Source of the DNA: a virus
IMG/VR virus record: IMGVR_UViG_3300009034_000051
Location: 1 to 53,768 of that record
Reading direction: 5' to 3' (one strand)
DNA length: 53,768 nucleotides
The position numbers were made by a program, and so were the translations under genes. Positions within the stretch are counted from its first letter, which is position 1. Each line of letters starts with the position of its first letter. The notes under the pieces were generated by a model. That model was not told the DNA's origin and searched no databases. It was given only the letters and a program-made list of their open reading frames with translations. Of this stretch, positions 16,170 through 53,030 are shown one piece after another.

Positions 16170-16595
16170 TCAATTCCGCGTGATGGTGTAATACAGCGTC
16201 CCTGTACTCGCTCCGCTCAGCACGAAATCAACATGTGTCCCGTAGTCTACTACCGCGGCGGATGTTGGGCCAACGCTCAACGCAGTATCAATGGCTAGGC
16301 TGATCGCGTCGCCAGCATCAAAAACGATCGTGACCGTCTTGCTTGTCTCGTTGACGTAAGACAGGCTGCCAAAGACCATATCGGTGACGGTCTGACCTGA
16401 TGGCCAGACCGTCGTAGCAGACATCGTCGTCGCGCTAATGTCGTCAGCAACCAACAGCGAGGTCGTCGTAACCGTTTCGACGCTAGCGTTGTTGGCCCGC
16501 AACTTGACAAACGAGCCGAGAGGGTCCAGATAAGACGCGGCCACAGACAAGGCCACGAGACCGATCAAAGTAATCCCCAGAATGGTTTTTTTCAT
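16170..16595 (-). CDS. Small exported beta-rich protein in the head operon
   Basis: 141 residues. The signal peptide is about residues 1-20 (MKKTILGITLIGLVALSVAA). The mature region is rich in Thr, Ser and Val, with a fibre-like segment around residues 38-66 (VTTTSLLVADDISATTMSA) that resembles the shaft of tail or head fibres, and a C-terminal strand set ending TLYYTITRN. It is transcribed with the capsid genes. Function unknown; surface or virion fibre are both possible. Confidence 0.6.
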   Translation of the reverse strand: MKKTILGITLIGLVALSVAASYLDPLGSFVKLRANNASVETVTTTSLLVADDISATTMSATTVWPSGQTVTDMVFGSLSYVNETSKTVTIVFDAGDAISLAIDTALSVGPTSAAVVDYGTHVDFVLSGASTGTLYYTITRN

Positions 16596-16600
16596 CGCTC

Positions 16601-16951
16601 CTATTTCTCCCTTCTCTGTCTAGATGATGTACGATCGCGCCTAACCAAGCTTGGGAGTCGCCTTCTTTGCCCATTAGGACTATCCGCATTGCCCTCGGCG
16701 TCCCGTGAGGCTCTTGCTTTTGGTGGCTTGTTGGTCTTCGCTTCGGCGAGATCATTGCCTGGGACAAGTACAAGATGCCCAGAGTGTATTTCGCGTTGCA
16801 CGAGCATGATGTTCGAGTACATCAGCAAATCGCGCTTGCTGACAGTCCCGCGATCATCCATGTGTCGATGAAACTTTCGTTGGAAATATCCTCCAACAAC
16901 GCGAAAGCGCGCAATTGCAGGAAGACGCTGAAGCGAAATAGCATTTGTCAT
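16601..16951 (-). CDS. Basic hypothetical protein of the head operon
   Basis: 116 residues with AGAGG 7 bases upstream of ATG 16951. The middle section (HRHMDDRGTVSKRDLLMY, then MLVQREIHSGHLVLVPG) looks like a folded domain, while the last 40 residues are very basic and Arg/Lys-rich, suggesting nucleic-acid contact or disorder. It fills the gap between the major capsid gene and the small exported protein, with only 5 bases to the next gene. No family recognised. Confidence 0.5.
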   Translation of the reverse strand: MTNAISLQRLPAIARFRVVGGYFQRKFHRHMDDRGTVSKRDLLMYSNIMLVQREIHSGHLVLVPGNDLAEAKTNKPPKARASRDAEGNADSPNGQRRRLPSLVRRDRTSSRQRREK

Positions 16952-16995
16952 GATCGCACCTCTAGCGCAGGTTATCGATGATCACGCCCGAACAA

Positions 16996-17940
16996 TCAAC
17001 TCGTGACGCCGGTGATCCGGAAGCCAGCCGCCGCCAGAATCACCTTTTGATCGTAGTAGTAGCTCACGCGCAACACATCGCTCTTCCTTGGATCTTCGCG
17101 CCACTTCTCGACCAGCCAGGCCTGTACGCCGCCGCCTGGGTTCCAGGCGAATGTCGCGGCGAGCGTCGGCTGCCGAAGACCTACTCGCTCGGGGACCCAG
17201 CCGAGATATGCCGTTGTCCCCATGACAGCGCTGTTCGAGGCTGTTGCGCCCTTGGCGGCCGTATTTTTGTAGGCTTTGCCAACAAGCACGCGATCGACCT
17301 GGAAAACCTGCGCTAGCGCTTGCTCGGTAATGACCGCAGCCGATCCAGGAGCGCCGCCGTATTTGACCCGATCGAGGATCTCGGGATGGTTCGCTAACGC
17401 CTCGAAAGCTTCGAAACTGATTCCAAGGACATTCGGGACCGCGAGAATGTTGCGGATAATAGTAGCTCTGGCATTGCGGACGTCGGCGATCGGCGTACTC
17501 GTATCGAGCGACCATACACCATTAGAGACCGCGGCGGCGTTAGTAATACCCGCGTCGAGCTTCGCGAACAGATCGATCTCGCGGTCGAGCGTGATCTTGT
17601 CTGTCACGAACTCGGTTCCGTCAATATCTGCCTGAATCGCTGGATCGGCATTTTGCCGGATTTCGTCTGGCACGACATGCTCGAGGGCATGATCGTCGGC
17701 AAAATAGGAATCCGTTGTCGTTATGAAATTCGTTTCGTTGGCTCTTGCGCCTGGCGCTCTTGCAACGTCTTCTTGCCTGGCGCGCTCGTTTTCGACGTCG
17801 AGCTTATAGTATTTGTCGCTCTGCTTCATCACATTGACTTCAGGCGCCAAGCTCGCGGCGATAAAGCCCTGTCGCGCATAAGCGACGCTGACATTCGTGA
17901 GCGCGGCGTCTACGTGTACTTGACTTGCATTCGTGGGCAT
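16996..17940 (-). CDS. Major capsid protein
   Basis: 314 residues with AAAGGAGGG just before ATG 17940. The sequence resembles HK97-fold major capsid proteins of the Mu/P22-like group: an N-terminal arm (VDAALTNVSVAYARQGFIA), a spine helix region, LGISFEAFEALANHPEILDRVKYG near 170-195, and a C-terminal axial strand set ending SYYYDQKVILAAAGFRITGV. It lies after protease-scaffold and cement genes, the usual order. Confidence 0.85.
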   Translation of the reverse strand: MPTNASQVHVDAALTNVSVAYARQGFIAASLAPEVNVMKQSDKYYKLDVENERARQEDVARAPGARANETNFITTTDSYFADDHALEHVVPDEIRQNADPAIQADIDGTEFVTDKITLDREIDLFAKLDAGITNAAAVSNGVWSLDTSTPIADVRNARATIIRNILAVPNVLGISFEAFEALANHPEILDRVKYGGAPGSAAVITEQALAQVFQVDRVLVGKAYKNTAAKGATASNSAVMGTTAYLGWVPERVGLRQPTLAATFAWNPGGGVQAWLVEKWREDPRKSDVLRVSYYYDQKVILAAAGFRITGVTS

Positions 17941-17976
17941 GATTGCCCTCCTTTCAGAGTTGTGACGCTCTAAAGA

Positions 17977-18363
17977 TTAGAGCTTGGCCATGCGAATGCG
18001 GACTTTGATCGTCTGCGTAGCTGCCGAGCAGGACTCGAGCGCGATTCCACCGATCTCATCATTGGCCGTCGTCGTTTTGATTCCCTGTCCCGTAGCGTTC
18101 GACTTAAGGTAATCCCCGGCGGCGATTGCCGTCCCCGAACCATCGCATACGAGATAGCGATCACCGTCAAAGTAGACTCCGACGTTTCGGTTTGCGGCGC
18201 CGTTCGCGGCGGCGGTGATGCCCATGATCTGTCCGCCTGCGCCCGCCTGCTCGACAACGGTCTGTACTCCCGTACACTCTGATGTGTCGAGCTGGACAAA
18301 CTTGTGTGCGGCGATATCCGTTGTGCATTTGTAACTCAGCGGCTCGTTGCCTTTCCCTTCCAT
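17977..18363 (-). CDS. Capsid cement/decoration protein (DUF2190-like)
   Basis: 128 residues from ATG 18363, which has AAAGGAG 6 bases upstream; the ATG 27 bases earlier lacks one. The pattern is that of DUF2190-like cement proteins: AHKFVQLDTSECTGVQ, then GGQIMGITAAANGAAN, GDYLKSNATGQG and IGGIALESCSA. These trimers clamp the capsid lattice in phages of this type. A second, distantly related copy lies at 47251-47985. Confidence 0.75.
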   Translation of the reverse strand: MEGKGNEPLSYKCTTDIAAHKFVQLDTSECTGVQTVVEQAGAGGQIMGITAAANGAANRNVGVYFDGDRYLVCDGSGTAIAAGDYLKSNATGQGIKTTTANDEIGGIALESCSAATQTIKVRIRMAKL

Positions 18364-18409
18364 GATATTCTCCTTTATGTAAGATGCCAACTAAGCTGCC
18401 TGGGAGCCT

Positions 18410-18907
18410 CTACCTGCTGGCTACTTCTTTTGCGACTTCCGCGAGCGCAACCCCAAATGGCTTCTTCGTCTCTTCCGCCCTCGTCTTCGCCGCGGCCGCT
18501 AGGCTTTGGCTGTCGGACAAGTCCTGTGAGTCGCCGAGGTCCTTGACGCCAGAGCTGCCTGCGAATTTGCCAACATACTCGAGCTCCTGGCCGATAACCG
18601 TCTTCACGGTTTCGGCAAGCCCGTCAGCATCGGCGCAATCCACAAATCGCTCTCGCACGCGCTCACCGAAAGCCTTCATCGCGTCTTCGCCTAGTGCTTT
18701 GATGCGCTCTGGCGTTGTCGCTTCGGCCAAAGCGGCGGATACGGTTGCGGCGATTTCCTCTTTGATCTTAGCTCCCCTCAGCTCGGATAGCTCTTTCTGA
18801 GCAGCATCGAGCGCGGTCGTAGCTTCCTTCAGTTTCGTCGTCAGAGATTCTTTCTCTCCTTCGCTGGCCTCCAGTTTCTCTTGGAGGGCGGCAAGATCTT
18901 CTGCCAT
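18410..18907 (-). CDS. Candidate nested scaffold protein (in-frame internal start)
   Basis: An in-frame ATG at 18907 within the protease-scaffold gene follows AAGGGGGA about 8 bases upstream and would give 165 residues that start with the coiled coil (MAEDLAALQEKLEASEGEKE). Mu and lambda both make the scaffold from an internal start inside the protease gene. The sequence supports the same arrangement here but only expression data can confirm it. Confidence 0.5.
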   Translation of the reverse strand: MAEDLAALQEKLEASEGEKESLTTKLKEATTALDAAQKELSELRGAKIKEEIAATVSAALAEATTPERIKALGEDAMKAFGERVRERFVDCADADGLAETVKTVIGQELEYVGKFAGSSGVKDLGDSQDLSDSQSLAAAAKTRAEETKKPFGVALAEVAKEVASR

Positions 18908-19921: not shown

Positions 19922-19937
19922 GATTCCGCTCCTATCT

Positions 19938-22368: not shown

Positions 22369-24040
22369 AATCCGGTAGAATGTCTGGGATTAAAGCAGTA
22401 AGGTCAACTGTGTGCCGCTTAGTAGGCTCGGGCAGCTTAGGACAAAGGGCCAGCGCCAATGCGTCTCCACGATCTGGAGACCTACCGAGACGCTTCTTCA
22501 GCTCTTCCTTGCTTTCCAGGCGCTCTTGACCCGTAGAAGTAAAACCACGCCGACGGATAGAGCCTAAGTCGCCCTTGAGCTTCTCGTCGTCGACGATCTT
22601 TCCCTTTTCCTTCACCCACTCACGCGCGCGCCACCAAGACTCGACGCGCAAATTCTGGTAGCGATCTTCCTGAAATGCTCTTTGCGCAAAGCTGACTCCC
22701 TGGACATTGGTCCGGCCTTGCCCTAAGAGGACATCAACTACGCCAGCTCCGATCCCTATTACGTCAATGCTGACAAGCGCTGGATTCATTTCATCTATTT
22801 TTGACGCGACAAAACCAGCAACGGTCATCAGATCATCCGTCGCAAGGGTCCACAGCCCAACCATCTGATCGCCTTGTACCGCGGCAAGAACACTCTCGTC
22901 GCCTGTACCTGGCGATCGCGCAACGTCGACGCCGAACCGCAGACCAGCGCTCCGATCTACCGTATCGCGCGCTACCGATTGCTCGAGCCAACTAAGATAA
23001 ATAAGATTATCGGCGCCCCCCTCTGGGAAGTCTCCCAGAACTCGGGCCTGCCACATAGGAGAATCCTCTCCCCAGTCGTCGCGACGATCGAGCAACCATT
23101 CCCGTGTTGCAATACCTGGGATAGCATTGCAACCTGTTACTATATTGGGCGAGTCCAGCGCGGAAAGATGTAGACGAGTCCATCGGCCCTTGCGAAACGA
23201 TTCGTAGAATGGACCATCAGTTGCCAAAGGATTGCCTATCAAGAGAATGCGCGATCCTTCCGTTGCGCACAGGCCATGAATGGCTTCCATGATCGTATCT
23301 GTCAATGCTGATGCTTCGTCGACTTCGACAAATACACCATGTTGCGTGCGAAAGCTCGCGAAGTTTTCCGGATCTGTGGGGCTGATAGCGAAGGCTTCCC
23401 ATTGCGTCCCCAGCTTCCATTCGGTTTCATTCGCTTGGCCAATCATAGTAATAGCTTTGATCGGCGCTTGCTCCCGGACCCTGCGAATCTCGGGCCACAG
23501 TCCCTTCCGTAAACCCTTCCAGGATGCGGCGGAAGTGATCACATAGCCAGGCCGCTGTATGTTAAGAAACCAAGGCACGAGGGTCGCCGCAGTAAACGTT
23601 TTGCCAGCTGCATTAGACGATCGGCACGTTACCATATTGCGCGTGGCGACAGCCTCGATAAGATCTCGCTGAGATTGCCGGCTCTTCCGCTCGCGAACGA
23701 AGCGAATCGTATCGTCAGAGAATCCCTCCTCTGTCAACCATGCAATTAGGTTAGTGGGCTCGGCGAGCGGCTTATCCCAATAGGTAGCGCCTAGGACTCT
23801 ATGCGCCCAACCTAATGGGCTCACCCTTGTGTGCGCCTGATAGTAATAGCGCTTTACGGCCAACGTCGCGTCATCACCAAAACCAGCCGCTTCAAGATCT
23901 TTGACTACTTGTGACCCGGGGACATTGGCGGCAAAGCGCGAAGCAATCCACGACCTAAAGTCCGAGTAACTCCGAATCTCACGCATGAGAGCATCTATGG
24001 GCTTTTGCTCGCTACCTATTGCGTCGGCTTGGAGGATCAT
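22349..24040 (-). CDS. terL: Terminase large subunit
   Basis: 563 residues. The ATPase domain has Walker A SSNAAGKT at about residue 140 and Walker B GVFVEVDEAS near 235, followed by a coupling motif (LLIGNPLATDGPF). The C-terminal nuclease domain starts with LRFGVDVARSPGTGDES, whose Asp residues are the likely metal ligands, and continues with ALVSIDVIGIGAGVVD. It packages DNA through the portal. ATG overlaps the small-subunit stop as TAATG. Confidence 0.95.
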   Translation of the reverse strand: MILQADAIGSEQKPIDALMREIRSYSDFRSWIASRFAANVPGSQVVKDLEAAGFGDDATLAVKRYYYQAHTRVSPLGWAHRVLGATYWDKPLAEPTNLIAWLTEEGFSDDTIRFVRERKSRQSQRDLIEAVATRNMVTCRSSNAAGKTFTAATLVPWFLNIQRPGYVITSAASWKGLRKGLWPEIRRVREQAPIKAITMIGQANETEWKLGTQWEAFAISPTDPENFASFRTQHGVFVEVDEASALTDTIMEAIHGLCATEGSRILLIGNPLATDGPFYESFRKGRWTRLHLSALDSPNIVTGCNAIPGIATREWLLDRRDDWGEDSPMWQARVLGDFPEGGADNLIYLSWLEQSVARDTVDRSAGLRFGVDVARSPGTGDESVLAAVQGDQMVGLWTLATDDLMTVAGFVASKIDEMNPALVSIDVIGIGAGVVDVLLGQGRTNVQGVSFAQRAFQEDRYQNLRVESWWRAREWVKEKGKIVDDEKLKGDLGSIRRRGFTSTGQERLESKEELKKRLGRSPDRGDALALALCPKLPEPTKRHTVDLTALIPDILPDYERGLN

Positions 24041-24633
24041 TAAGATGGCTGCTCCTTAGGTGGCTCTGGAAACCCACCATCCATAGCGGCGCCCATGATA
24101 TTGGCAAACTCTCCCGGCGCGCCGACCTCTTGTCGATCGACAAGCCAACCCTGCAAGCGCGCCAATAATTCCATCGCCCGCAATTTAGGCTCGCATTTAA
24201 CTTTGACGAATATCCCATCACGTGTCGTCCGCGATGTGACCTCGCTCACTCGGCGGCGTTGCTCGAGGGAGAGCCCCTTGCTCTGTTTAATTTGTACTCC
24301 AGCTGGCCCCCAAGCCATTAGCTCGCCGGGATCGCCATAGATAATATTTTCCAGTTCGGCGACCATACGCTGCCGCTTATTCTCGGTTTTCTTGCGCGCT
24401 TTTTGGTCGGCTTGATCGATCGCGGTTTTGACGTCATCGCGTTGCATCAGCCGATAGCCTGCGGTACGCGCGGACCGCGGGCTATACCCAACTGCAATTG
24501 CAGCATGACAACTATTGCGTTTTGGATCTGAGATCAGCGCGTGGATAAATCCAGTGACACGCGCATCCATATCACGCGGTAGTTCGCGTGCCCGTTTTTT
24601 TTGATCCTTTGGCCGTGCTTTTGGTCTTGACAT
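24040..24633 (-). CDS. terS: Terminase small subunit (Terminase_2-like)
   Basis: 197 residues. A basic N-terminus is followed by the DNA-binding helix-turn-helix region (HAAIAVGYSPRSARTAGYRLM and RDDVKTAI) typical of Terminase_2 proteins, then coiled-coil helices (QADQKARKKTENK) for ring assembly. It lies directly upstream of the large subunit and next to the repeat-bearing intergenic region that could hold the packaging site. Confidence 0.85.
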   Translation of the reverse strand: MSRPKARPKDQKKRARELPRDMDARVTGFIHALISDPKRNSCHAAIAVGYSPRSARTAGYRLMQRDDVKTAIDQADQKARKKTENKRQRMVAELENIIYGDPGELMAWGPAGVQIKQSKGLSLEQRRRVSEVTSRTTRDGIFVKVKCEPKLRAMELLARLQGWLVDRQEVGAPGEFANIMGAAMDGGFPEPPKEQPS

Positions 24634-27402: not shown

Positions 27403-28095
27403 ATGAAAATGGTACCGATTCTTGCGGGACATTTCCAAATGGGGAGCTCGCCAGATGAAGACGCATTCTACGCCGACGAAGCTCCTGCGCACAATGTCAC
27501 CCTTGCCGAATCGTTCCGGCTTGGTACAGCGCCGGTAACGCAGGCGCAGTACGAGGCGGTGATGGGCAACAACCCTTCTGACTTCAAGGGCCGGGACCGC
27601 CCAGTCGAGCGTGTCTCGTGGTACGATGCGATGGCCTTTTGCAAGAAACTGTCAGATCAAACGGGGCAAAAGTTCACGCTCCCGACCGAAGCACAATGGG
27701 AATACGCCTGCCGGGCGGGGAGCCTGGGCTCATTCTGTTTTGGCGAAAATGAACTGGGCGACTACGCCTGGTATTTCAGAAACTCCGACGATGAAACCCA
27801 TCCGGTGGGCCAGAAGAAACCGAATGCTTGGGGTCTCTATGACATGCACGGAAACGTCCGGGAATGGTGTCTAGACCACTGGCACAACAACTACAATGGC
27901 GCGCCGGAGGATGGCAGCGCGTGGTTCCGACCAGAGAGATCCGACCGCATTACTCGCGGCGGCAGTTGGTACGACGACGCAAACGAATGTCGGGCAGCGT
28001 GCCGCCTCGAGAGGCCGCCGAGCCATCGGGATGCCGCTACTGGATTCCGCGTTCTTGCAGTTGCGGCGGGGGCTAAACAACGACGACTCCATTAA
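27403..28095 (+). CDS. FGE-sulfatase-fold (C-type-lectin-like) protein 1
   Basis: 230 residues; a complete formylglycine-generating-enzyme-like domain without extra domains. Motifs: GHFQMGSSPDE, APVTQAQYEAVMGNNPS, LPTEAQWEYACRAGS, NAWGLYDMHGNVREWC, then TRGGSWYDDANEC and GFRVL. The fold often serves as a display or binding scaffold, including as the target protein of diversity-generating retroelements. The copper-site cysteines of genuine FGE are not apparent, so catalysis is unlikely. A paralogue at 46464-47240 shares long stretches at DNA level, which suggests duplication or exchange. Confidence 0.8.
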   Translation: MKMVPILAGHFQMGSSPDEDAFYADEAPAHNVTLAESFRLGTAPVTQAQYEAVMGNNPSDFKGRDRPVERVSWYDAMAFCKKLSDQTGQKFTLPTEAQWEYACRAGSLGSFCFGENELGDYAWYFRNSDDETHPVGQKKPNAWGLYDMHGNVREWCLDHWHNNYNGAPEDGSAWFRPERSDRITRGGSWYDDANECRAACRLERPPSHRDAATGFRVLAVAAGAKQRRLH

Positions 28096-29500: not shown

Positions 29501-29770
29501 TCACACATTCTTGCGCCCTCTGCGTTTCTCCGGCGCAATCTCGACAGTAGCATTAGATAGCGGGACAAACCATTCAGCAAAATGATTAACGTGGGCGAAT
29601 CCCATCTGCTTCGTCGGCCATACTTTGCCCGAACCATCATGGTCGGCGAGCCATAGATTAACAATGTCATATGATGTCACGCGCTCGAATATGTAGAGCC
29701 CTGGCTCAAAAGATAAAAAAGGCCTGAACAACGCAAACAGCGCGCCTCGCTTGATGTCGCGAATACCCAT
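29501..29770 (-). CDS. Small hypothetical protein downstream of the beta-helix protein
   Basis: 89 residues. Its ATG overlaps the stop of the beta-helix gene as TAATG. Residues 10-75 (ALFALFRPFLSFEPGLYIFE, then DIVNLWLADHDGSGKVWPTKQ) look folded; the end is basic. No signal peptide. Last gene of the leftward island, converging with the early rightward genes. Confidence 0.5.
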   Translation of the reverse strand: MGIRDIKRGALFALFRPFLSFEPGLYIFERVTSYDIVNLWLADHDGSGKVWPTKQMGFAHVNHFAEWFVPLSNATVEIAPEKRRGRKNV

Positions 29771-30933
29771 TAGCGTCTCCGTATTGCTAGCACGACATCG
29801 GCAATGTCAACTGCTTGATCACCATTGAGATCAGCCGCCTGGATGTTGCCATAACCAGCCAGGATAATACTAACGATGTTCTGGCTCGTCGCTCCAAGCA
29901 AAAATTTCCAGTCGCCGAAGGGTCCGCCATAAGCGCCTAGATCCGACCGCTCGGATCCGCAACCCTTAGCCGGACCATCGCAGTACTGCGGGTCGCCGGC
30001 GTCAATACAAATCGAATCACTAGCTAGTATATATGTGTCATCGGCGAAGCTCGGGCCTTGCGATCTGAAAATAATCGTCGGCCTGTCGCCACGCATCCCG
30101 TGGATGCTAAAGGAATACGCGAGATTGTCATTCCACGGTCCAAGGTCATCCCAAACAGTGCCGCTAAACGCAGGGTCGCCACCGCGTTGACCATAGAAGA
30201 TCGTATTCCTGATGTCTGCGGAAGAAAAACCGAGGCCAGGAAACGGACTCCCGCGATTGTCGAGAACCACATTCTGATGGAAAACGCCATTACACATATA
30301 TCCAGCTGGCCCATTCAGCGCCTCGCTCTGGTAGTCAAATAATAGGAAATTGTTTCGCAGGATTATGTTGTTGCTGACCAATCCATCGCAACCATACAAG
30401 CCCGCGCCATACATAGCAACGTTCTCATAAATCCAATTGTTCAAAATCAGCCCATCACAATCGTAGATACCGCCGCCTTCATGCGCGCGGCAATTATAGA
30501 TTCGGTTAAGCTGGATTGTAGCCATCGTTTTGTTACCTTGGATTCCGCCGCCATGTTCAGCGCTTCCTCGTGTCAAAGTAAAGCCCGCAAGGCCGCAAAG
30601 CGAAGTTTCGCCACCGCTGAACGTGACAACTGGCCCACGATAATCGCCGTCGATAATCGTCGCGGCCGTGATAGTATTGTCTTCTGGGTTGTTCGATCGC
30701 AGAACGATATTCTTTCCCAGGACGTTGATGTTCTCGCGGTAGGTCCCTGGCCTAGCGATAACGATGTCGCCATCGCGAGCTGTTTCGATCGCCGCCTGGA
30801 TCGTCCCGCTCGGATTGGCGATAATTGTGCCTGCTAATGCGCCGCGCGAAACGGCGAAAACCCATGACCAGAGCGCAGATCGGAACATCCTGTGCAAGAT
30901 GAATGGCGCGAGCGAAGCAATAATCGATCTCAT
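29770..30933 (-). CDS. Exported right-handed beta-helix protein with dockerin-like C-terminus
   Basis: 387 residues from ATG 30933 (AGGAGC upstream). The N-terminus has a long hydrophobic stretch (about 1-34, ending SRGALA), read as a signal peptide. Residues 35-300 form a pectate-lyase/NosD-type beta-helix: GTIQAAIETARDGDIVIARP, then repeated NIVLRSNN, GGIYDCDGLILNNWI and GAGLYGCDGLVSNNII rungs. The last 25 residues (DLNGDQAVDIADVVLA) are one half of a dockerin/EF-hand calcium-binding repeat. It is read leftwards downstream of the repressor, so it may be a lysogenic conversion gene that changes the host cell surface. It resembles exported host proteins rather than phage ones. Confidence 0.7.
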   Translation of the reverse strand: MRSIIASLAPFILHRMFRSALWSWVFAVSRGALAGTIIANPSGTIQAAIETARDGDIVIARPGTYRENINVLGKNIVLRSNNPEDNTITAATIIDGDYRGPVVTFSGGETSLCGLAGFTLTRGSAEHGGGIQGNKTMATIQLNRIYNCRAHEGGGIYDCDGLILNNWIYENVAMYGAGLYGCDGLVSNNIILRNNFLLFDYQSEALNGPAGYMCNGVFHQNVVLDNRGSPFPGLGFSSADIRNTIFYGQRGGDPAFSGTVWDDLGPWNDNLAYSFSIHGMRGDRPTIIFRSQGPSFADDTYILASDSICIDAGDPQYCDGPAKGCGSERSDLGAYGGPFGDWKFLLGATSQNIVSIILAGYGNIQAADLNGDQAVDIADVVLAIRRR

Positions 30934-31313: not shown

Positions 31314-31955
31314 TCAGAATGATGAGGAGTATACTATTTCGACGCTTGTGATTTTCTCGGGGGCGATATTGTGCTCCCACAGACTCAGCGTCCGCGTTTG
31401 ACCACTAACAAAAGTCTCGATACTCTCCCGCGATGCGCTCAGGACCTCGTCGCCGCAGAATAGAGTTACATCAAAACAAGTGTAGGCAAACGTTTTCGGG
31501 CCATTATATGTAACCCGTATCAGGACATCGGACCCGCCATATGGATGCCCAGCAACGGTTGGGCGCGAGTACGTGAACATCTCATCGGAGACGCAAGGAG
31601 GATGTGGATCTCTCGCGGATCGTTGCAGAGATCGATCTGGGAGCGCAACGCGCGCGAACTTTTGCAAAGTCGCCGGCTTGGTTTTTGGATGACCAATGCG
31701 AGACCAATCGATAGGCTGGCGACGGATTCTCACAGACTCAAAGCCGGAAAAATTGCCCGATCGCGCCCCGGAAGATGAGCGATCTGTGGCAATAACCGTT
31801 ACGCAATATGTACCCGTCGTATCACGATAAACTCGACGGACCTCGACGCCTCGCCAGGTGAGCCCAGACTCCCAAGAGATGATGTCTGCAGGAGTTGGCT
31901 GCGCGATGCCAATGGCTGATCCGATCAACGCGCATGTTTTCAATAAGTTTTTCAT
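31314..31955 (-). CDS. Exported protein of unknown function in the repressor transcript
   Basis: 213 residues from ATG 31955 with GGGAG 9 bases upstream; two nearby in-frame Met codons exist further up. The signal peptide is about 1-23 (MKNLLKTCALIGSAIG then ending PTPA). The mature part is beta-rich with Cys residues (TTGTYCVTVIATDRSSS, AYTCFDVTLFCGDEV), resembling fibronectin-like or carbohydrate-binding modules. It lies directly downstream of the repressor genes, suggesting expression in the lysogen. Confidence 0.6.
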   Translation of the reverse strand: MKNLLKTCALIGSAIGIAQPTPADIISWESGLTWRGVEVRRVYRDTTGTYCVTVIATDRSSSGARSGNFSGFESVRIRRQPIDWSRIGHPKTKPATLQKFARVALPDRSLQRSARDPHPPCVSDEMFTYSRPTVAGHPYGGSDVLIRVTYNGPKTFAYTCFDVTLFCGDEVLSASRESIETFVSGQTRTLSLWEHNIAPEKITSVEIVYSSSF

Positions 31956-44817: not shown

Positions 44818-45528
44818 ATGAGCACTACAACACGACGAGTTGTAACCACAGAAGAGCTGGAACGCACCCAACAGCTACATCTATTATGGCAAGAAGGGAA
44901 AACAGAAGGCAAGCGCGCCGACCTGCGCGACGCCGACCTGAGCAACGCCGACCTGAGCAACGCCGACCTGAGCAACGCCGACCTGCGCGACGCCGACCTG
45001 AGCCGCGCCGACCTGAGCAACGCCGACCTGAGCAACGCCGACCTGCGCGGCGCCGACCTGAGCAACGCCGACCTGCGCGGCGCCGACCTGCGCGGCGCCG
45101 ACCTGAGCGGCGCCAACCTGCGCCGCGCCGACCTGCGCGGCGCCGACCTGAGCTACGCCGACCTGCGCGGCGCCGACCTGCGCGGCGCCAACCTGCGCAA
45201 CGCCGACCTGAGCTACGCCGACCTGAGCTACGCCGACCTGCGCTACGCCGACCTGCGCTACGCCAACCTGCGCTACGCCGACCTGCGCCGCGCCGACCTG
45301 CGCGACGCCGATCTGAGCGACGCCAACCTGCGCGACGCCGACCTGCGCTACGCCAACCTGAGCCGCATAATGTGGTGCGGCGCCACAATAGATGGCATTA
45401 TTTTATCGCCGTCCGCTGTCGGCGGCCCAGGACATATCCTATCTGCGCTAACCGACGAGGAGGCGAAGATTATTCGTCAGAGGCGTGAGGGAAAGCAATC
45501 GAATGACAGCCGCGTGCTCGTTTCTTGA
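44818..45528 (+). CDS. Pentapeptide-repeat protein
   Basis: 236 residues. An N-terminal helix (TTRRVVTTEELERTQQLHLL) caps an uninterrupted run of about 30 A(D/N)L(R/S)x repeats from residue about 36 to 180, then IMWCGATIDGIILSP and a basic tail. Such right-handed quadrilateral beta-helices mimic DNA or act as spacers; MfpA/Qnr types inhibit gyrase. The underlying DNA is a 15-bp tandem repeat with extreme codon uniformity. A target cannot be named from sequence. Confidence 0.8.
   Translation: MSTTTRRVVTTEELERTQQLHLLWQEGKTEGKRADLRDADLSNADLSNADLSNADLRDADLSRADLSNADLSNADLRGADLSNADLRGADLRGADLSGANLRRADLRGADLSYADLRGADLRGANLRNADLSYADLSYADLRYADLRYANLRYADLRRADLRDADLSDANLRDADLRYANLSRIMWCGATIDGIILSPSAVGGPGHILSALTDEEAKIIRQRREGKQSNDSRVLVS
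44923..45370 (+). repeat. 15-bp tandem repeat coding for the pentapeptide helix
   Basis: GCCGACCTG plus six bases (GCGC/AGCA/CTAC types) recurs about 30 times with very few substitutions, mostly in the fourth and fifth codon. Because of the 15-bp period, the other frames on both strands also stay open; these are not separate genes. Confidence 0.9.
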
Positions 45529-45777: not shown

Positions 45778-46467
45778 ATGCCGATCATCGATGAGCAGGT
45801 TTGGCAGGCTGAAGTTTTAAAAAATGCCAACAAACCTACTAAGATCCTCATCGATGTCGCCCGCCGCGTGATGTCGAATTTGGACATAGAGCCCTCAGAC
45901 GACATACATGCTCGCGCTTCAATTACATCGGCCGAGCACGCGGCCGATGTAACCCTTTCAAGAGCTGAGAAAGAATGTGTAGCACGCATAGTTTCTCGCC
46001 ACCACACCAAAGGCGAGACTTTTTGGTGTACCTGGCAGTATAAGTGCTGGACGCGCGAGGCGCGTCTCCGGCAATTTTACCACCAACAACAGACGCGCGA
46101 CTGTGACGTGTTAAGATATGACCCCGTTAAAGAGGACGCAAGAGCTGGAAAGACGGAAGAGGGAACACCCCAAACACGAAGGAAGACACAAAGGAAAACC
46201 GCCAAGGAAATACGAGAGGCAATGTCCGAAGACGAAATACGCGCCTTGGATGAAGGGCAGCTGCTAGCGACGCGCCAGATTTGGTGTCCACGCTGCAACG
46301 GCACAGGGACTTACCAAGACGAGACGCCGCTTGGCATAGTTCATAAGATGTGCCCGACCTGTCTCGGCAGTGGCATTGCCGCTCAATCAGTACCATTGCG
46401 AGACGCTCTAGTAGAACTATTAACCGGGAAAGAGCCTGGAGAGGAGCCGAAGGAGGCAGACAGATGA
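45778..46467 (+). CDS. Hypothetical protein with DnaJ-like zinc-finger end
   Basis: 229 residues from ATG 45778 (GGAG 7 bases upstream). The N-terminal 110 residues are helical (IDEQVWQAEVLKNANKPTKI, then ETFWCTWQYKCWTREARL), followed by a charged linker. Near 175-210 two CxxCxGxG motifs (CPRCNGTGTYQ and CPTCLGSGIA) form a DnaJ-type zinc finger. Its stop overlaps the start of the FGE-fold gene (ATGA). Confidence 0.6.
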   Translation: MPIIDEQVWQAEVLKNANKPTKILIDVARRVMSNLDIEPSDDIHARASITSAEHAADVTLSRAEKECVARIVSRHHTKGETFWCTWQYKCWTREARLRQFYHQQQTRDCDVLRYDPVKEDARAGKTEEGTPQTRRKTQRKTAKEIREAMSEDEIRALDEGQLLATRQIWCPRCNGTGTYQDETPLGIVHKMCPTCLGSGIAAQSVPLRDALVELLTGKEPGEEPKEADR

Positions 46468-47240
46468 CTAAGCTAGAGCAAGCAAAGATCACGTTCATGC
46501 TTGGGCCAAGAATAGAGATGATTCGTATCTCGCCGGGCACGTTCGAGATGGGGAGTCCGCCAGAAGAGGTCGGGCGTCTTAGAGATGAGGGTCCTATACA
46601 TACAGTGACCATTTCTGACCCCTTTTTGCTGGCGACGACACCTATCACACAGGCGCAGTACGCAGCGGTGATAGGCAACAATCCTTCTGCTTTCAAGAGC
46701 GAAGACCATCCGGTCGAGTGTGTGTCCTGGGATGATGCAATGCGGTTTTGCGAGAAGATCTCTGAGCGTATGGATTACGAGCTCACGCTCCCGACCGAGG
46801 CGCAATGGGAATACGCCTGCCGGGCAGGGAGCCAGACACGCTATTATTTTGGAGACGACGAAAGAAACCTAGGCGACTACGCCTGGTACGGCGAGAACAG
46901 CGGTGGGGAGACCCATCCAGTGGGCCAGAAGAAGCCGAACGCTTGGGGCCTCTATGACATGTACGGAAACGTTTGGGAGTGGTGTCGGGACAACTGGCAT
47001 GGCGACTACAAAGGCGCGCCGACGGACGGTTCGACATGGGAGGACGCCGAGGGCCGGGCTTCGGGCCGCGTGGTTCGCGGCGGCTCCGGGGGCAGCACTG
47101 GCAGGAGTTGCCAGTCGGCGTACCGTTACTACGGCGCTCCCTCTATCCGAAGAAGCGGTCTTGGTTTCCGCATCATTGCGCCGATATACACCAGCAGCGG
47201 GCGAATAAGCGCAGGCCAGGAGGCCAGAACAAAGATCTAA
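46464..47240 (+). CDS. FGE-sulfatase-fold (C-type-lectin-like) protein 2
   Basis: 258 residues from ATG 46464 (AAGGAGG). After a 22-residue N-terminal extension (TKLEQAKITFMLGPRIEM) the domain repeats the motifs of copy 1: GTFEMGSPPEE, TPITQAQYAAVIGNNPS, LPTEAQWEYACRAGS, NAWGLYDMYGNVWEWC, then VRGGSGGSTGRSCQSAYRYY and GLGFRII. The last 40 residues differ strongly from copy 1, as in variable C-type-lectin targets. It is followed after 10 bases by a cement-type gene. A third, truncated N-terminus lies at 52650. Confidence 0.8.
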   Translation: MTKLEQAKITFMLGPRIEMIRISPGTFEMGSPPEEVGRLRDEGPIHTVTISDPFLLATTPITQAQYAAVIGNNPSAFKSEDHPVECVSWDDAMRFCEKISERMDYELTLPTEAQWEYACRAGSQTRYYFGDDERNLGDYAWYGENSGGETHPVGQKKPNAWGLYDMYGNVWEWCRDNWHGDYKGAPTDGSTWEDAEGRASGRVVRGGSGGSTGRSCQSAYRYYGAPSIRRSGLGFRIIAPIYTSSGRISAGQEARTKI

Positions 47241-47250
47241 GGAGGTAGGT

Positions 47251-47985
47251 ATGTCCAACTGTATTCTCGACAAGGCTTACACGGTAACCGAGACAGACGG
47301 CGTGGCCGCTTATCGCGTCGTGGTCCAAGGGGCCAACGCCGGCGAGTGCGCTCTGCCCGGCGCGCAGAACGCCGACAAGATCCTGGGCGTGACGACTCAC
47401 GCTCAAGATGTCAGCATCGTCAGCGTCCGCAACATCTTTGTCCGCAAGTCGGGTATAGCGCGCGTCGAGGCCGCGGGCGCGGTGGCCGTGGGCGACGCCG
47501 TCAACGTCGCCGGGACCACGGGCAAGATCAAATCCATCGGCGACGAATCCATCGGCACGAAGGTCAAAGTGTTGGGTTTCGCCGAGACGGCCGCTCAAGC
47601 CGACGGCGACATCATCGAGGTGTTTATCGCGATGCACGAACGAACGATCGCGTCTGACAAAGGTACCAATGAAAATGAAAAGGAGCCAGCAGAAATGACC
47701 GCTTTAGAGGGCAGCGCGAAAGCTAGAGTAGGTGAGCCTGTGTCAGCAAAGCATAACGGACGACGCATTGTATATACATTGCGAAGCGCAATGCGTCCAT
47801 GTTGGATTGAAAGTAGTAAAACCTTGTGTGTTGGGGGTAGTGACTGGGAGCTCAACAAGCTCGCAGTTACAATACCAGCCCAACATGCCGTTGCCGTTCT
47901 TGAGGGCATTCGTAGATACAACGCTATGTTTGCAGAGGAGTCTTGCATTAGTTCAGAGTCCCCTCAGATGGCAATTGTGGGCTAG
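47251..47985 (+). CDS. Cement-type (DUF2190-like) protein fused to a small C-terminal domain
   Basis: 244 residues, AAGGAGG upstream. Residues 1-131 match the capsid cement pattern (KAYTVTETDGVAAYRVVV, GVTTHAQDVSIVSVR, GDAVNVAGTTGKIKS, TAAQADGDIIEVFIAMHE). From about residue 149 a different domain follows, whose end (VTIPAQHAVAVLEGIRRYNA) is paralogous to the gene at 49160-49519. An internal ATG 47695 with AAGGAG 9 bases upstream stands exactly at the domain border, so the second domain was probably once a separate gene and may still be made alone. Confidence 0.7.
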   Translation: MSNCILDKAYTVTETDGVAAYRVVVQGANAGECALPGAQNADKILGVTTHAQDVSIVSVRNIFVRKSGIARVEAAGAVAVGDAVNVAGTTGKIKSIGDESIGTKVKVLGFAETAAQADGDIIEVFIAMHERTIASDKGTNENEKEPAEMTALEGSAKARVGEPVSAKHNGRRIVYTLRSAMRPCWIESSKTLCVGGSDWELNKLAVTIPAQHAVAVLEGIRRYNAMFAEESCISSESPQMAIVG

Positions 47986-48317: not shown

Positions 48318-48327
48318 GGAGAGAAGC

Positions 48328-48429: not shown

Positions 48430-48436
48430 GAGCGAT

Positions 48437-48860: not shown

Positions 48861-48896
48861 GTAGAAGATCACATATCAAAGGAGGCCCAGGAAATG
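48861..48896 (+). repeat. 36-bp leader repeat, copy 2
   Basis: Second copy of the leader at 48437-48472, carrying the GGAGG ribosome-binding site and start codon of the Cys-rich gene. Confidence 0.85.
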
Positions 48897-49163: not shown

Positions 49164-49519
49164 AGCATATCAAAGTAGCCTACACCTATCTGCCCTCTGG
49201 CGATCTGCTGCTGATGATTCTGGAGCAAACGCATACGGAGGAGGGTTTCGGACGGGGAAGGCCCTACTCTTTCGGGCACGAAGGATATAGCATAACCAGT
49301 CAGGCTAACCCAGAGTGGGACAGCGAGGACCGTCGCTTCTTGCTTAAGGGTATGCGTTTGTACGTTCGCGGCGCCTTGTCTGATCGAGATCATACATGGG
49401 TCAAAGTCCCGCGCGAACACGCCTCCGGAGTCCTCGCAGCCCTGAGAGCCTATAACGCCGAATTTGCCGATCACGTCGCTGACCCGGCCGGTCAACCGCA
49501 AGCTGGAGTCATCGGCTGA
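49160..49519 (+). CDS. Small domain protein, paralogue of the cement-fusion C-terminus
   Basis: 119 residues from ATG 49160. Beta-rich N-terminal half (KVAYTYLPSGDLLLMILEQ) and a C-terminal helix (VKVPREHASGVLAALRAYNA, then EFADHVAD and QAGVIG) that matches the end of the 47251-47985 product. It lies directly upstream of the methyltransferase. No named family. Confidence 0.6.
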   Translation: MKHIKVAYTYLPSGDLLLMILEQTHTEEGFGRGRPYSFGHEGYSITSQANPEWDSEDRRFLLKGMRLYVRGALSDRDHTWVKVPREHASGVLAALRAYNAEFADHVADPAGQPQAGVIG

Positions 49520-49602
49520 GGAGGTTCGGAATACAGCGGAAGGTGCCTTTAATATCGACAGGACAGACGCAACAAGCGCCGCCGCCTGGCTTACCCGCGG
49601 CC

Positions 49603-49619
49603 GAGGCCACGCGATGAGT
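49603..49619. repeat. 17-bp direct repeat, left flank of the methyltransferase
   Basis: GAGGCCACGCGATGAGT, containing GAGG ribosome-binding site and the methyltransferase start codon. The identical 17 bases occur at 50730-50746 across its stop codon. Confidence 0.9.
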
Positions 49620-50744
49620 ACAGTTGAACGACATTGTCTCAATAACGGGGTCCTTTACCAAGGGCATGTGCTCGACGCGCTTGCGCAGATCCCCGAACAG
49701 TCAGTTCATTGTGTTGTCACTTCGCCACCCTATTGGGGCCTTCGTGATTATGATCTTCCTGCCGTGATCTGGGGGCACATCCCCGACTGTCACCACGATT
49801 TCGAGCCTACGCTTGAACCAGGACGGAAAATCCGCTCGAAGAGATCGGAAAGCCGGTCGCCGCCGTGCGGGAATGGCGGGCGACGCCAGCCTGGGACATG
49901 CCGACGATGTGGCGCATGGCAAGGTTCCCTCGGGCTTGAGCCGACACCTGACCTCTACGTTGCCCATATTTTAGAAACGTTTAGGGCCGTCCACCGGATC
50001 CTACGTGACGACGGAACGCTCTGGCTCAACCTAGGCGACTGTTACATTGGTGGCGGACGTGGGGGAATTGGGGACAAGAGCACGCTACAAGGCGTTGGCT
50101 TTGCGCTCAAGCAGAAAAATCTGGTCGGAATCCCTTGGCGCGTCGCTCTCGCCATGCAGGCCGACGGTTGGATCCTGCGCTCCGACATTATCTGGGCTAA
50201 GCCCAATCCAAGGCCCGAAAGCGTTCAGGATCGCCCGACGCTCGCCCATGAACATCTGTTCTTGTTCTCGAAGCAGGGCAAATACTATTATGACGCCGAA
50301 GCGATTAAAGAAGCAGTACGGCAAAACGCATCATTTTCTCGCGCCATTGCGGGCATTGTTAACGCGCGTAACTGTCGATCGGTCTGGAATATCAATATCG
50401 AGAACAATCGATGTTCAGATGCTCATTTCGCAACTTTCCCGTCTGAACTGCCCAGACGGGCGATCTTGGCTGGCACATCCGCTCATGGTTGTTGCGGTAG
50501 TTGCCTGACGCCCTATGAGTGGCCATGTAGCTGTGTGGCCAGGGACGCGATCTCGGCCACTGTGCTTGATCCTTTCATGGGCAGCGGTCGCACTGCCCGT
50601 GTCGCGTTGGACCTTGACCGGCGCTGGATTGGCGTAGAGATAAATCCTGACTATTGCCAATTGATCGCCGAAGTCGTCGCGCAGCAAACATTCTCTCTGA
50701 GCCCTCGCGCCGCGGGGCCATCTCTTACCGAGGCCACGCGATGA
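49614..50744 (+). CDS. Orphan beta-class DNA methyltransferase
   Basis: 376 residues from ATG 49614. The catalytic motif IV (VTSPPYWGLRDY) is near residue 38 and the cofactor motif I (VLDPFMGSGRTARVAL) near residue 327; this order defines the beta class, which methylates adenine N6 or cytosine N4. Between them is a target recognition part with a Cys/His segment (GTCRRCGAWQG) and LWLNLGDCYIG. No restriction enzyme partner lies nearby, so it probably protects phage DNA or regulates genes. It is bounded by 17-bp direct repeats. Confidence 0.85.
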   Translation: MSTVERHCLNNGVLYQGHVLDALAQIPEQSVHCVVTSPPYWGLRDYDLPAVIWGHIPDCHHDFEPTLEPGRKIRSKRSESRSPPCGNGGRRQPGTCRRCGAWQGSLGLEPTPDLYVAHILETFRAVHRILRDDGTLWLNLGDCYIGGGRGGIGDKSTLQGVGFALKQKNLVGIPWRVALAMQADGWILRSDIIWAKPNPRPESVQDRPTLAHEHLFLFSKQGKYYYDAEAIKEAVRQNASFSRAIAGIVNARNCRSVWNINIENNRCSDAHFATFPSELPRRAILAGTSAHGCCGSCLTPYEWPCSCVARDAISATVLDPFMGSGRTARVALDLDRRWIGVEINPDYCQLIAEVVAQQTFSLSPRAAGPSLTEATR

Positions 50745-50746
50745 GT
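50730..50746. repeat. 17-bp direct repeat, right flank of the methyltransferase
   Basis: Identical to 49603-49619. Here the bases encode the last codons of the methyltransferase, its TGA and the overlapping start of a 17-residue frame. Confidence 0.9.
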
Positions 50747-50794
50747 GACCTATCGCCGCGTATTCTGCTGCATCACAAGGAGCCACCAAAATGA
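50741..50794 (+). CDS. 17-residue leader-like frame
   Basis: Begins with ATGAGT overlapping the methyltransferase stop and ends overlapping the next ATG at 50791; it contains the AAGGAG site of the next gene. Probably couples translation rather than making a functional peptide. Confidence 0.35.
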   Translation: MSDLSPRILLHHKEPPK

Positions 50795-51102
50795 AAACAA
50801 TTAGCGTCAACATCGCGTGTAGCGATCTGTTTTGCTGTAGCTGTAAGTGGAGAAACAGCGGGAAAGTGTTTCTCGGAATCGTGGAAAAAGATTGCCTGCT
50901 CTTTGAGCGTCCCTTGCAGGGGTATTCCAATCCAGCAGGCGCCTGGCGCTGCAGAGAATGCCTCGCCGCGGAAACGCGGAACTACGCTGAGGTAGTGAGG
51001 CGCCTACACTATTTTCTGTACGAAGCAGCAGGCGAGGACGCAGCCACTACTGAAGAGATTAGGCGTCTGCTCGAAAGCGAAGGGCTGGACGTCTGGACAT
51101 GA
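50791..51102 (+). CDS. Cys-rich hypothetical protein
   Basis: 103 residues with AAGGAG upstream. N-terminal cysteines (NIACSDLFCCSCKWRNSG, then WRCRECLAAET) suggest a zinc-binding module; the C-terminal half is helical (RRLHYFLYEAAGEDAATTEE). Last gene before the excision/integration genes. No family recognised. Confidence 0.55.
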   Translation: MKTISVNIACSDLFCCSCKWRNSGKVFLGIVEKDCLLFERPLQGYSNPAGAWRCRECLAAETRNYAEVVRRLHYFLYEAAGEDAATTEEIRRLLESEGLDVWT

Positions 51103-51203
51103 TCGAGAAAGCCCGGGTCCAGGCCCGCGGCCAGGCTCATGGTCCAGCCCCGGCCGATCCATCCTGACGAAAGGCTTGACTCGCCACCTCGCAGAGCGCA
51201 GAC

Positions 51204-51590
51204 ATGGAAACGACCGTCACATCCGAACCCACCCACTTGCTCACCGCTCGAGCTCTGGCGGCCGAGCTGGGCATTTCTGTCGGTACGATCGGCCGGTTGC
51301 GCCGACTCGGCAAGATCCGCTATCATGCTTTCGGCACGACTTACCGGTACGATTTGCAAGAAGTCCTGGAGGATACGCATCATGGCCAGCGTCGTAAAGC
51401 GAGGATCGAGATGGTCCGCAGTCCTGCGCGATCCGGACTCAAAGAAACAGGTCTGGCGCGCGCTGCCTCGATCAACTCAGACCAAGCGAGCCGCAATGAC
51501 CATCGCGCGAGAACTGCAAGACGATCTAGATCGTCAACGCCTCGGGTTGATGCCGCATTCAAACGATTCTTCGAGCGCAAATTGGACTGA
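51204..51590 (+). CDS. Excisionase-like HTH protein overlapping the integrase
   Basis: Frame of 128 residues from ATG 51204. Residues 12-58 form a MerR/Xis-type winged HTH (LTARALAAELGISVGTIGRL, then RYHAFGTTYRYDLQEVLED). The part after about residue 60 overlaps the integrase in another frame by 209 bases and is strongly basic, so it may be a non-selected reading. Small HTH proteins in this position often act in excision. Confidence 0.55.
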   Translation: METTVTSEPTHLLTARALAAELGISVGTIGRLRRLGKIRYHAFGTTYRYDLQEVLEDTHHGQRRKARIEMVRSPARSGLKETGLARAASINSDQASRNDHRARTARRSRSSTPRVDAAFKRFFERKLD

Positions 51591-52458
51591 CACGGCTCGC
51601 ATTATTCTTGGAGATCTCGAAACTGGCGGAGCAAGCAGAGGCTGGTTATCTTCGTGTTTGTGGTTCACAATGCGCTTCCATGACTTCGTTGGCGATGTCC
51701 CAGCCAGCGAAATCACGGAAGCGCAATGCCGCGAATACATCGCCAAGCGTCGCGCCTCTGAGAGTCGCCCTTCCCCTGCAACCCTGCGAAAAGAGATCAC
51801 ATTCCTTGCGCGTGTCCTAGCCCGCGCTGGCAATGACTGTTGGCGAAATATTCCTCGGCCGAGAGAAATGATCCGCCCGCCCGTCTACCTAACCCCCGAA
51901 CAGTTCGCCAGTCTCCTTCTTGTCGCCCCACAAGAGCGCGTTGTGCGGTATAGCCTACTCGTCTATACTGGAGCCAGGAGAGGAGAGGCGCTGGCTCTAC
52001 GCTGGCGCGATATTGATCTCGATCAGGGGACCGTCAGAATCCGCAATGCGGCCAAAGGCCGCGGCCATCGCCACATCTATCGCGTAGTCCCTCTGTGCAA
52101 CCCATTGCGTCAATTGCTCGAGTCGATACATGGCGGCGCTGACGATGCGGTGATCTTGCCATCTGCCAACTGGGGGCGCCACATGCGTACAGATTGCCGC
52201 AAGGCCGGGATCAAAGGACACTGGCGGCCACACGACCTACGGCATACATTCTGCTCCTGGCTCGCCCAGGCCGGGATTTCACTTCAGGAAATTCGCGATC
52301 TCGCTGGTCACAAGTCGATTACAACAACCGAGCGATATGCCCATTTGGCGCCTGGTGTCAACATACGGATCGTCCACGCGCTCAACGCGACAGACGTTAG
52401 CAAAACGTTAGCAAACAATGAGGAGAAGAGATCGGCGACAGGCTCGCAGGCATCCTAA
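51382..52458 (+). CDS. int: Tyrosine integrase
   Basis: 358 residues from ATG 51382, with GGAGG 9 bases upstream and a normal integrase start (MASVVKRGSRWSAVLRD). Core-binding SAM-like domain about 70-165 and catalytic domain with Arg in TGARRGEALALRWRDID, Lys in RNAAKGRGHRH, HDLRHTFCSWLAQAG for H-x-x-R, GHKSITTTERYAHL with His and the nucleophile Tyr. All five catalytic residues are visible. It recombines attP and attB. Confidence 0.9.
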   Translation: MASVVKRGSRWSAVLRDPDSKKQVWRALPRSTQTKRAAMTIARELQDDLDRQRLGLMPHSNDSSSANWTDTARIILGDLETGGASRGWLSSCLWFTMRFHDFVGDVPASEITEAQCREYIAKRRASESRPSPATLRKEITFLARVLARAGNDCWRNIPRPREMIRPPVYLTPEQFASLLLVAPQERVVRYSLLVYTGARRGEALALRWRDIDLDQGTVRIRNAAKGRGHRHIYRVVPLCNPLRQLLESIHGGADDAVILPSANWGRHMRTDCRKAGIKGHWRPHDLRHTFCSWLAQAGISLQEIRDLAGHKSITTTERYAHLAPGVNIRIVHALNATDVSKTLANNEEKRSATGSQAS

Positions 52459-52633
52459 CTCGCCTATTCTGAGTCATGCACGCAAAGCACAGAGCGGCAA
52501 TAAGAGCCGCCCATGAGGCGGATTTCTACATACTGAGACACCTGGAGATACCTCAAAGCATTGTGCTTGAGAAGCCCTGAGATGGCCTGAGATGCCCAGA
52601 AATGCAGAAAAACGTTAGCACAGCGTTAGCAAA
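52394..52633. other. Candidate attP with paired 11-bp arm-type repeats
   Basis: ACGTTAGCAAA occurs twice in tandem at 52394-52415, at the end of int, and again as ACGTTAGCACA-GCGTTAGCAAA at 52612-52633, each pair with an 11-bp period and 218 bases apart. CCTGAGATG repeats with a 10-bp period lie between them (52576-52594). Paired, helically phased sites beside int are typical integrase arm and excisionase sites, so the core crossover site is probably within this segment. The core cannot be identified without the host sequence. Confidence 0.5.
52494..52526 (+). terminator. Alternative hairpins after int, possible terminator
   Basis: GCGGC(52494-52498) can pair with GCCGC (52506-52510), or CCGCC (52507-52511) with GGCGG (52517-52521); the second is followed by ATTTCT. 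The two stems are mutually exclusive. Termination would be weak because the T-tract is short. Confidence 0.35.
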
Positions 52634-52649
52634 AGAAAGGGACGGACAG

Positions 52650-52739
52650 ATGAATAATCCAGAGCAAGCAAAGCTCACGCTCCTGCTTGGCCCAAGGATT
52701 CTGCGCTGGGCGACTTGGCGCGCGCGCCCAATGATCTAG
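52650..52739 (+). pseudogene. Truncated N-terminus of a third FGE-fold gene
   Basis: ATG 52650 to TAG 52739 reads EQAKLTLLLGPRILRW, which matches EQAKITFMLGPRIEM at the start of the 46464 gene; the DNA match covers about 55 bases and includes the GACAGATGA start region. All following FGE motifs are missing. It is a relic left beside the candidate attP, perhaps by recombination with a related prophage. Confidence 0.65.
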
Positions 52740-52748
52740 TCCGCTTTT

Positions 52749-53030
52749 CTATTTGTCTTGGGCGGAGCGGTAGAAGATCCAGCCAAACGCTCTAACGGTG
52801 CGGTAGCGCGCCTCCGCGATGGCGTATACAAGCGCCTTGCGCCACCATGAGGATTTGTTCCCCATCATCCGGATGCAATCGCGGAATCTTTGGTCGGCTT
52901 CGAGACGGTCGATTCCTTCGGCGTAGGCCAGGTCATGTTCTTCGCAGCATGGCCCCATGTCGCCAATGCCAGGGAGCCAGTCCAGTGCCAGCGTACACCC
53001 ATTGCGCCGTTTCGTCTTGGTCTCGCTCAC
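52749..53030 (-). CDS. Phospholipase A2-like small protein, end of the late operon
   Basis: 93 residues with a GTG start that overlaps the upstream stop (GTGA). Residues 18-45 carry the PLA2 catalytic pattern: a Gly/Asp loop (DWLPGIGDMG), then PCCEEHDLAY with the His-Asp dyad and EADQRFRDC further on. The end is basic and amphipathic (SSWWRKALVYAIAEARYRT). Being the last late gene and next to a spanin-like gene, it may attack membrane lipid during lysis or entry; enzymatic activity is inferred, not shown. Confidence 0.6.
   Translation of the reverse strand: MSETKTKRRNGCTLALDWLPGIGDMGPCCEEHDLAYAEGIDRLEADQRFRDCIRMMGNKSSWWRKALVYAIAEARYRTVRAFGWIFYRSAQDK

Follow-up and report, generated by a model that had tools for sequence, protein, structure and literature searches.

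The IMG/VR virus record IMGVR_UViG_3300009034_000051, analysed here over 53,768 nucleotides (the window) of its 53,769, is on its sequence an uncultured temperate long-tailed phage (siphophage), and six of the 25 genes of its late operon, a fibre gene among them, begin with predicted Sec signal peptides. Tailed phage particles are thought to assemble wholly in the cytoplasm. Our hypothesis is that in some tailed phages part of the assembly runs outside the cytoplasm: the outermost fibres and decoration proteins would travel through Sec, form disulfides in the periplasm and be fitted at lysis to particles already finished, and the phage of the window would send a whole set along this route; we give this reading a probability of roughly 0.3. 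Its first part is the firmest. That the signal peptides are genuine and the proteins exported is very probable, judged by the cleavage-site-like residues that end the hydrophobic stretches, the start sites, homologues that lack a signal peptide and the cysteine pattern.

The original prediction had assigned Sec signal peptides to eight genes inside the virion operon, and had offered as explanations late surface or secreted proteins, virion parts added outside the cytoplasm, or uncleaved anchors. All eight open reading frames (ORFs) exist where it placed them, and all eight signal peptides were accepted with a calibrated score of our own. The location in the operon held for six; 29770-30933 and 31314-31955 lie outside it, between the first gene of the virion operon and a gene for a helix-turn-helix, repressor-like protein. 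The first and last 119 bases of the window are identical and it was taken as circular, so that the gene at 1-2507 is one gene that spans the contig junction and resumes at 53391. The predicted proteins, with lengths in amino acids (aa), are as follows:

16170-16595, minus strand: 141-aa protein, signal peptide MKKTILGITLIGLVALSVAA with S next (own score)
15405-16061, minus strand: 218-aa protein, signal peptide MQARGICLLVALLLARVSA with A next, then a remote phrog_5335 domain (profile E 1.4e-4; aggagg, like a Shine–Dalgarno (SD) sequence)
3606-5408, minus strand: 600-aa fibre, signal peptide MRTVVRLTLIFLCCCLRLDVAKA with Q next (own score, fibre motif, tail-gene neighbourhood)
2504-3604, minus strand: 366-aa protein, signal peptide beginning MKRFPFLIFAYLIMQVGQAIG (own score)
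1-2507, minus strand: N-terminal part of a 921-aa protein, signal peptide MKRIAILGCIVFCLCQSAMA with W next, PTPTP linkers, CBM96/DNRLRE and LamG domains (domain search)
53391-53649, minus strand: C-terminal part of this wrapped 921-aa protein (bases 53650-53768 repeat 1-119)
53027-53386, minus strand: candidate lipoprotein of 119 aa whose lipobox ends in Cys23, close to the late operon end (own score)
29770-30933, minus strand: 387-aa signal-peptide protein, weak beta-helix match, outside the late operon (found at its ATG)
31314-31955, minus strand: 213-aa signal-peptide protein, no family, outside the late operon (own score)

The late part of the set is mixed, comprising a beta-helix fibre, the remote phrog_5335 protein, the CBM96/LamG protein, two orphans and one lipoprotein candidate. 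The last of these, 53027-53386, belongs to an already known kind and may be a lysis lipoprotein, which is ordinary among phage signal-peptide proteins. Unimolecular spanins consist of an N-terminal lipobox and a C-terminal transmembrane segment. The candidate resembles them in its lipobox, its mildly hydrophobic C-terminus and its place at the end of the late operon, and differs in that no segment reaches the transmembrane threshold used.

Signal peptides were called with a score of our own that combines a von Heijne-type matrix with hydrophobicity, charge and position. On a benchmark of 76 E. coli K-12 genes, whose classes we assigned from gene names, it called 15 of 18 exported proteins and all three lipoproteins, and wrongly called one of 40 cytosolic and one of 15 membrane proteins. 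A first cut-off of 4.5 (60 genes) called seven of the eight ORFs, 3606-5408 scoring 4.4, together with one false positive (24040-24633, which we read from its position as the putative terminase small subunit). The later cut-off of 4.0 with position and charge rules, chosen after the first result had been seen, passes 6 of 25 late genes and 2 of the 35 other genes of the window. The late passers have a positive n-region, a hydrophobic core and small residues at -3/-1 near the start, and their cleavage in vivo is predicted; none of the remaining 19 late genes passes, the capsid, portal, tail tube and tape measure included. Six late hits correspond to binomial p = 3e-5, 2e-4 and 1e-3 at assumed false-positive rates of 1/40, 2/55 and 5%, and the shuffled N-termini of the six proteins pass at 0.2-4.2%.

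A comparison with related phage genomes had been suggested in the original prediction. Under a stricter rule (ATG start, SD-like site, at least 110 aa) the window genome has 7 passers among 39 ORFs, against 10 of 364 in 16 other viral contigs, some partial and all cut into pieces of at most 20 kb (one-sided Fisher p = 4.4e-4). The seven are five late genes plus 29770-30933 and 31314-31955; the lipoprotein candidate is not among them. The comparison is conservative, since four of the contigs (G009, G010, G011 and G013) were in the set for their exported fibre-like protein. Judged by predicted signal peptides, such tagging in the window is unusual yet not unique.

The six late proteins all start at ATG, most with an SD-like stretch before it (e.g., aggagg before 15405-16061 and ggaaggga before 3606-5408, weaker before 2504-3604 and 53027-53386). 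Within the first 70 codons 15405-16061 has no other in-frame ATG, and 16170-16595 has one, at codon 58, that lacks an SD-like stretch. The tail-end genes (5408-9049, 3606-5408, 2504-3604, the wrapped gene, 53027-53386 and 52749-53030) are spaced by -4 to +5 bp, the start of 3606-5408 overlapping the stop of 5408-9049 by one base; 16170-16595 and 15405-16061 begin 5 bp and 108 bp, respectively, behind their neighbours. By this arrangement the signal-peptide genes seem to belong to the late operon.

Behind its signal peptide, 3606-5408 carries the fibre motif noted before, DHG-L-GLADDDHTQYH, followed by a likely right-handed beta-helix (a weak match, below the Pfam cut-off). The stretch after the signal shares 54% identity over 52 aa with a fibre of another phage, one of the DHG-L-GL-DDDHTQY fibres with an Mtd_N-type N-terminus, from which the window protein differs by the signal peptide in front. 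It is also weakly similar to 29770-30933 (31% over 112 aa, E 0.003), whose C-terminus resembles what we take to be a single dockerin-type repeat (DLNGDQAVDIADVVLAI; no Pfam match). No family match was obtained for 16170-16595 or 2504-3604, nor, for the former, any homologue in phages up to an E value of 10, and the viral contig search returned no relative of 15405-16061 or of 2504-3604. Single-sequence structure predictions were not used (pLDDT 43 for 16170-16595 and 34 for 15405-16061).

A second homologue-based comparison is offered by 15405-16061, which is encoded between the major capsid protein and the head-tail connectors. Its residues 70-217 match phrog_5335 positions 32-183 of 191 (E 1.4e-4), and it aligns along this domain with nine cultured-phage proteins at 18-22% identity. 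The member of Vibrio phage H188 has tblastn matches in 112 phage records; a count of 0 in 50 viral records is uninformative, as 14 control genomes gave no match anywhere. None of ten sampled cultured-phage members (H188 and MAG7 being near-identical) has a signal peptide; in the window protein it takes the place of the N-terminal stretch, about 80-100 residues long, of most relatives. In addition, cysteine is absent from the last 180 residues in eight of nine relatives, whereas the window protein has two. Gene position is partly shared: the gene of Aeromonas phage KLEA5 gp10 lies, like 15405-16061, between capsid and tail terminator genes (more exactly, between stopper and tail terminator), that of qdvp001 close to a putative major head protein, while the other phages examined have it in the vicinity of genes for fibres, baseplate, lysis or terminase.

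Exported fibre-like proteins recur in other phages. A survey with the fibre motif gave 79 motif-bearing ORFs in 80 loci, four of them flagged by script. Two of the 79 were accepted as having a signal peptide: L054, which was flagged, and L093, which had failed the charge rule only and was added by eye. The flags on L059 and L083 were rejected by eye because the starts lay far inside the ORF, and that on L084 because it looked like an anchor. L054 (5641-7509) combines a signal peptide and the fibre motif with a weak Amidase_2 match (residues 515-576, E 7e-4, below cut-off). The L100 protein (1607-3541, 644 aa), of which an identical copy occurs in another contig (L170), has a signal peptide, a BclA_C match above cut-off and a match to phrog_13989, a virion structural protein (E 1e-16). 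That of L165 (6394-8460, 684 aa from an inner start) is encoded in a myophage contig that also has a baseplate wedge gene, and its own gene directly follows one that resembles a short tail fibre.

The podophage ct8d5349 (MW202898; L172, 35733-38486) encodes a protein annotated as "caprin-2 domain protein" (UOF83102.1) with fibre-type repeats and a signal peptide, sharing 33.8% identity with that of L100 over 93%; the gene before it is an annotated tail fibre (PHROG tail protein E 7e-37; T7 tail Pfam below cut-off). The start given in the annotation appears to lie 11 codons too far upstream, so that the signal peptide is hidden; the inner ATG has AAAGGAG upstream and begins MFNKILIAIVFIITCLNAFS. 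Its score of 2.9 is below the cut-off, and its acceptance by eye is, like that of L093, a judgement. It resembles the window proteins in being of fibre type with a signal; homology to them was not found, and it is one protein, not a set. A scan with its repeat gave 70 loci, with three flagged by script and two accepted: L198 (strong), also directly behind a fibre-type gene, and the weaker L199, which matches a tail-fibre PHROG at E 3e-9. The third, L217, was rejected by eye for a start far inside the ORF.

In at least three phages (L165, ct8d5349 and L198), therefore, the exported protein is encoded directly behind a fibre gene. A chain of homology joins L165 to L198 (27-30% identity), L198 to L172, and L172 to both L100 and L199. 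All five proteins were accepted as signal-bearing, the L172 signal being below cut-off and that of L199 weak, so the predicted signal seems to have been retained as the proteins diverged and passed from one tail type to another. Among phage fibre-like proteins the trait is rare, recurrent and, apparently, conserved. The original prediction had stated that no described phage with this pattern was known; we likewise recognised no description of signal peptides on tail fibres in searches of the open PMC full texts (a corpus outside which most subscription papers and all bioRxiv preprints fall), while single cases do occur in several sequenced, undescribed phages. Separately, signal-peptide proteins are also present in L005, L076/L079, L104 and L105; in L076, an AT-rich contig, two adjacent genes (2372-4517; 572 and 132 aa) stand directly before a DHGGLAGL fibre gene.

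Cysteine content was compared for the seven exported proteins of L054, L093, L100, L165, L172, L198 and L199, which are partly related and so are not seven independent cases. In cysteine content they exceed 46 unsignalled relatives (68 loci reduced to those with distinct N-termini; median 0.00%, C-X3-6-C in none of them; p = 5.9e-5), and the difference persists (p = 5.8e-4) against 113 unsignalled fibres, pooled by adding 67 distinct ones from the motif survey. L165 and L198 have 14 cysteines each and share 10 cysteine columns, where 0.31 would be expected by chance. The mature exported proteins of the window, counting 29770-30933, 31314-31955 and the lipoprotein candidate, contain 1.19% cysteine (2784 residues) against 0.53% in 18 other late proteins (5828 residues). 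Any association of the CGINQSC stretch with signal peptides is biased, as CGINQSC was itself a search pattern. Enrichment and common columns together support a predicted folding in an oxidising compartment outside the cytoplasm.

We propose the following sequence of events. Late in infection, fibre- and adhesin-type proteins would be made together with the virion proteins, exported by Sec and cut by signal peptidase I. They would then fold outside the cytoplasm, several of them with disulfides; such oxidative folding seems to us rather likely. In a two-membrane host, a soluble cleaved protein would be confined to the periplasm until lysis and would first meet finished particles at that moment. 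The exported proteins would thus be the outermost, last-added appendages (fibres, decoration), docking on particles at or after lysis, a step that we put forward tentatively and rank first among the possible fates of these proteins. In model phages, finished particles can be fitted in vitro with spikes, long fibres and decoration proteins, which makes docking at lysis chemically plausible. The signal peptides with their start sites, the place in the operon, the homology to phage proteins that lack a signal, the recurrence and the conserved cysteines were read from the sequence; cleavage, periplasmic folding, the two-membrane host and docking are what we infer.

Several observations weigh against this proposal. 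Searches of genome contigs for the host, made with the portal and with 29770-30933, gave no relative; nor was a tail-docking domain identified in the mature proteins. Statistically, the late genes of the window differ from its other genes at p = 0.057, the relaxed rule passes 8 of 61 window ORFs (13.1%; one an antisense ORF) against 1.6-12.5% per other contig, and loci found by capsid or terminase rarely carry signal peptides (6 of 353 ORFs flagged). The cysteine pattern is uneven, with none in 16170-16595, one in L093 and two in L100. The fibre label of L165, L198 and L172 comes from repeats and position, with no PHROG match at E 0.01, and L054, fibre-like at its front, may be a lytic enzyme that is exported. 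Finally, the CBM96 and LamG domains and PTPTP linkers of some window proteins resemble those of ordinary secreted bacterial proteins.

The alternative that we rank second, and consider a real possibility, is that the proteins are free adhesins that never join the particle and act in the periplasm, at the surface or in the lysate, for example by blocking receptors against superinfection or by keeping progeny off debris. Signal peptides, the carbohydrate-binding type of the CBM96 and LamG domains and a lipoprotein candidate in the same cluster would suit such a role. There is a precedent by another route in T5 Llp, a periplasmic superinfection-exclusion lipoprotein (PMC9586334). Like it, the window proteins would act outside the cytoplasm; Llp is a small lipoprotein, whereas five of the six operon proteins of the window are larger or fibre-like and are read as non-lipidated. 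However, if the host has two membranes, cleaved soluble proteins are not expected on the outside of the cell until it lyses, and the fibre-type stretches have been retained. Moreover, at E 0.01 no unsignalled relative of the exported proteins was found among own-contig ORFs of at least 60 aa (the window with seven queries, and eight other contigs, several of them fragments), the sole own-contig match joining two exported window proteins, 3606-5408 and 29770-30933; a result that tells against simple decoys copied from the fibre of the virion itself.

It is unlikely that we are dealing with host-derived cargo (morons), that is, secreted bacterial proteins acquired by a temperate phage to the benefit of the lysogen and merely lying near late genes. 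The integrase and helix-turn-helix regulator, the position of 29770-30933 and 31314-31955 and the likeness of PTPTP linkers and CBM96 to secreted bacterial proteins would fit. Against it, the tail-end genes are packed into the operon, two of the proteins are built of phage-type modules and other phages have exported fibre-like proteins. Uncleaved N-terminal anchors tethering virion parts or fibres at the inner membrane, the third option of the original prediction, would account for the hydrophobic segments and have a parallel in the motif-bearing L084, but we consider them very improbable given the small cleavage-site-like residues after the hydrophobic stretch, the short positive n-regions and the cysteine-enriched mature parts. 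Least credible is an artefact of wrong start codons, with cytoplasmic proteins beginning downstream: 3606-5408 does have an in-frame ATG at codon 31, but the SD-like sequences, the start codons of 15405-16061 and 16170-16595 and the similar cases in other phages weigh against it.

As for the genomic context, the integrase and the repressor-like protein are the markers of a temperate lifestyle, and the late operon on the minus strand encodes the large terminase, portal, head morphogenesis protein, major capsid, tail terminator, major tail protein and tape measure; a match to a protease falls short of its cut-off. The relatives found for the capsid and terminase are remote, with identities of 29-47% in viral contigs and under 60% in cultured phages. 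Three late genes without a signal peptide serve for orientation:

16996-17940, minus strand: major capsid protein, phrog_1005 (E 4e-66, profile match), operon landmark
5408-9049, minus strand: 1213-aa late tail-region protein directly upstream of the exported fibre gene (own score)
52749-53030, minus strand: 93-aa protein, last late gene, weak phospholipase A2 matches (below cut-off)

The last of these contains a CCEEHDLAY stretch. Between the major tail protein and the tape measure, the overlapping frames 12043-12444 and 12267-12764 (minus strand) look like a frameshifted tail assembly chaperone. The early region, on the plus strand, encodes two FGE-sulfatase (SUMF1-type) proteins (27403-28095 and 46350-47240; Pfam E 1e-53 and 3e-53), which might be diversity-generating targets if a reverse transcriptase lay near them, and, judged from its translation, a pentapeptide-repeat protein (44818-45528); on the same strand, away from the head genes, 47251-47985 has a weak match to a phage cement protein (PF09956, E 0.0024, below cut-off). 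A conventional endolysin was not recognised in the window, where no gene-by-gene search for one was made.

If the fibres are exported first, then either cytoplasmic assembly is a rule with exceptions, or some fibre-like proteins are released by phages to serve a purpose of their own outside. The recurrence in unrelated phages suggests that some phage surface parts may mature or act outside the cytoplasm, and the combination of signal peptide and cysteine pattern would provide a simple search handle for such proteins in other genomes.

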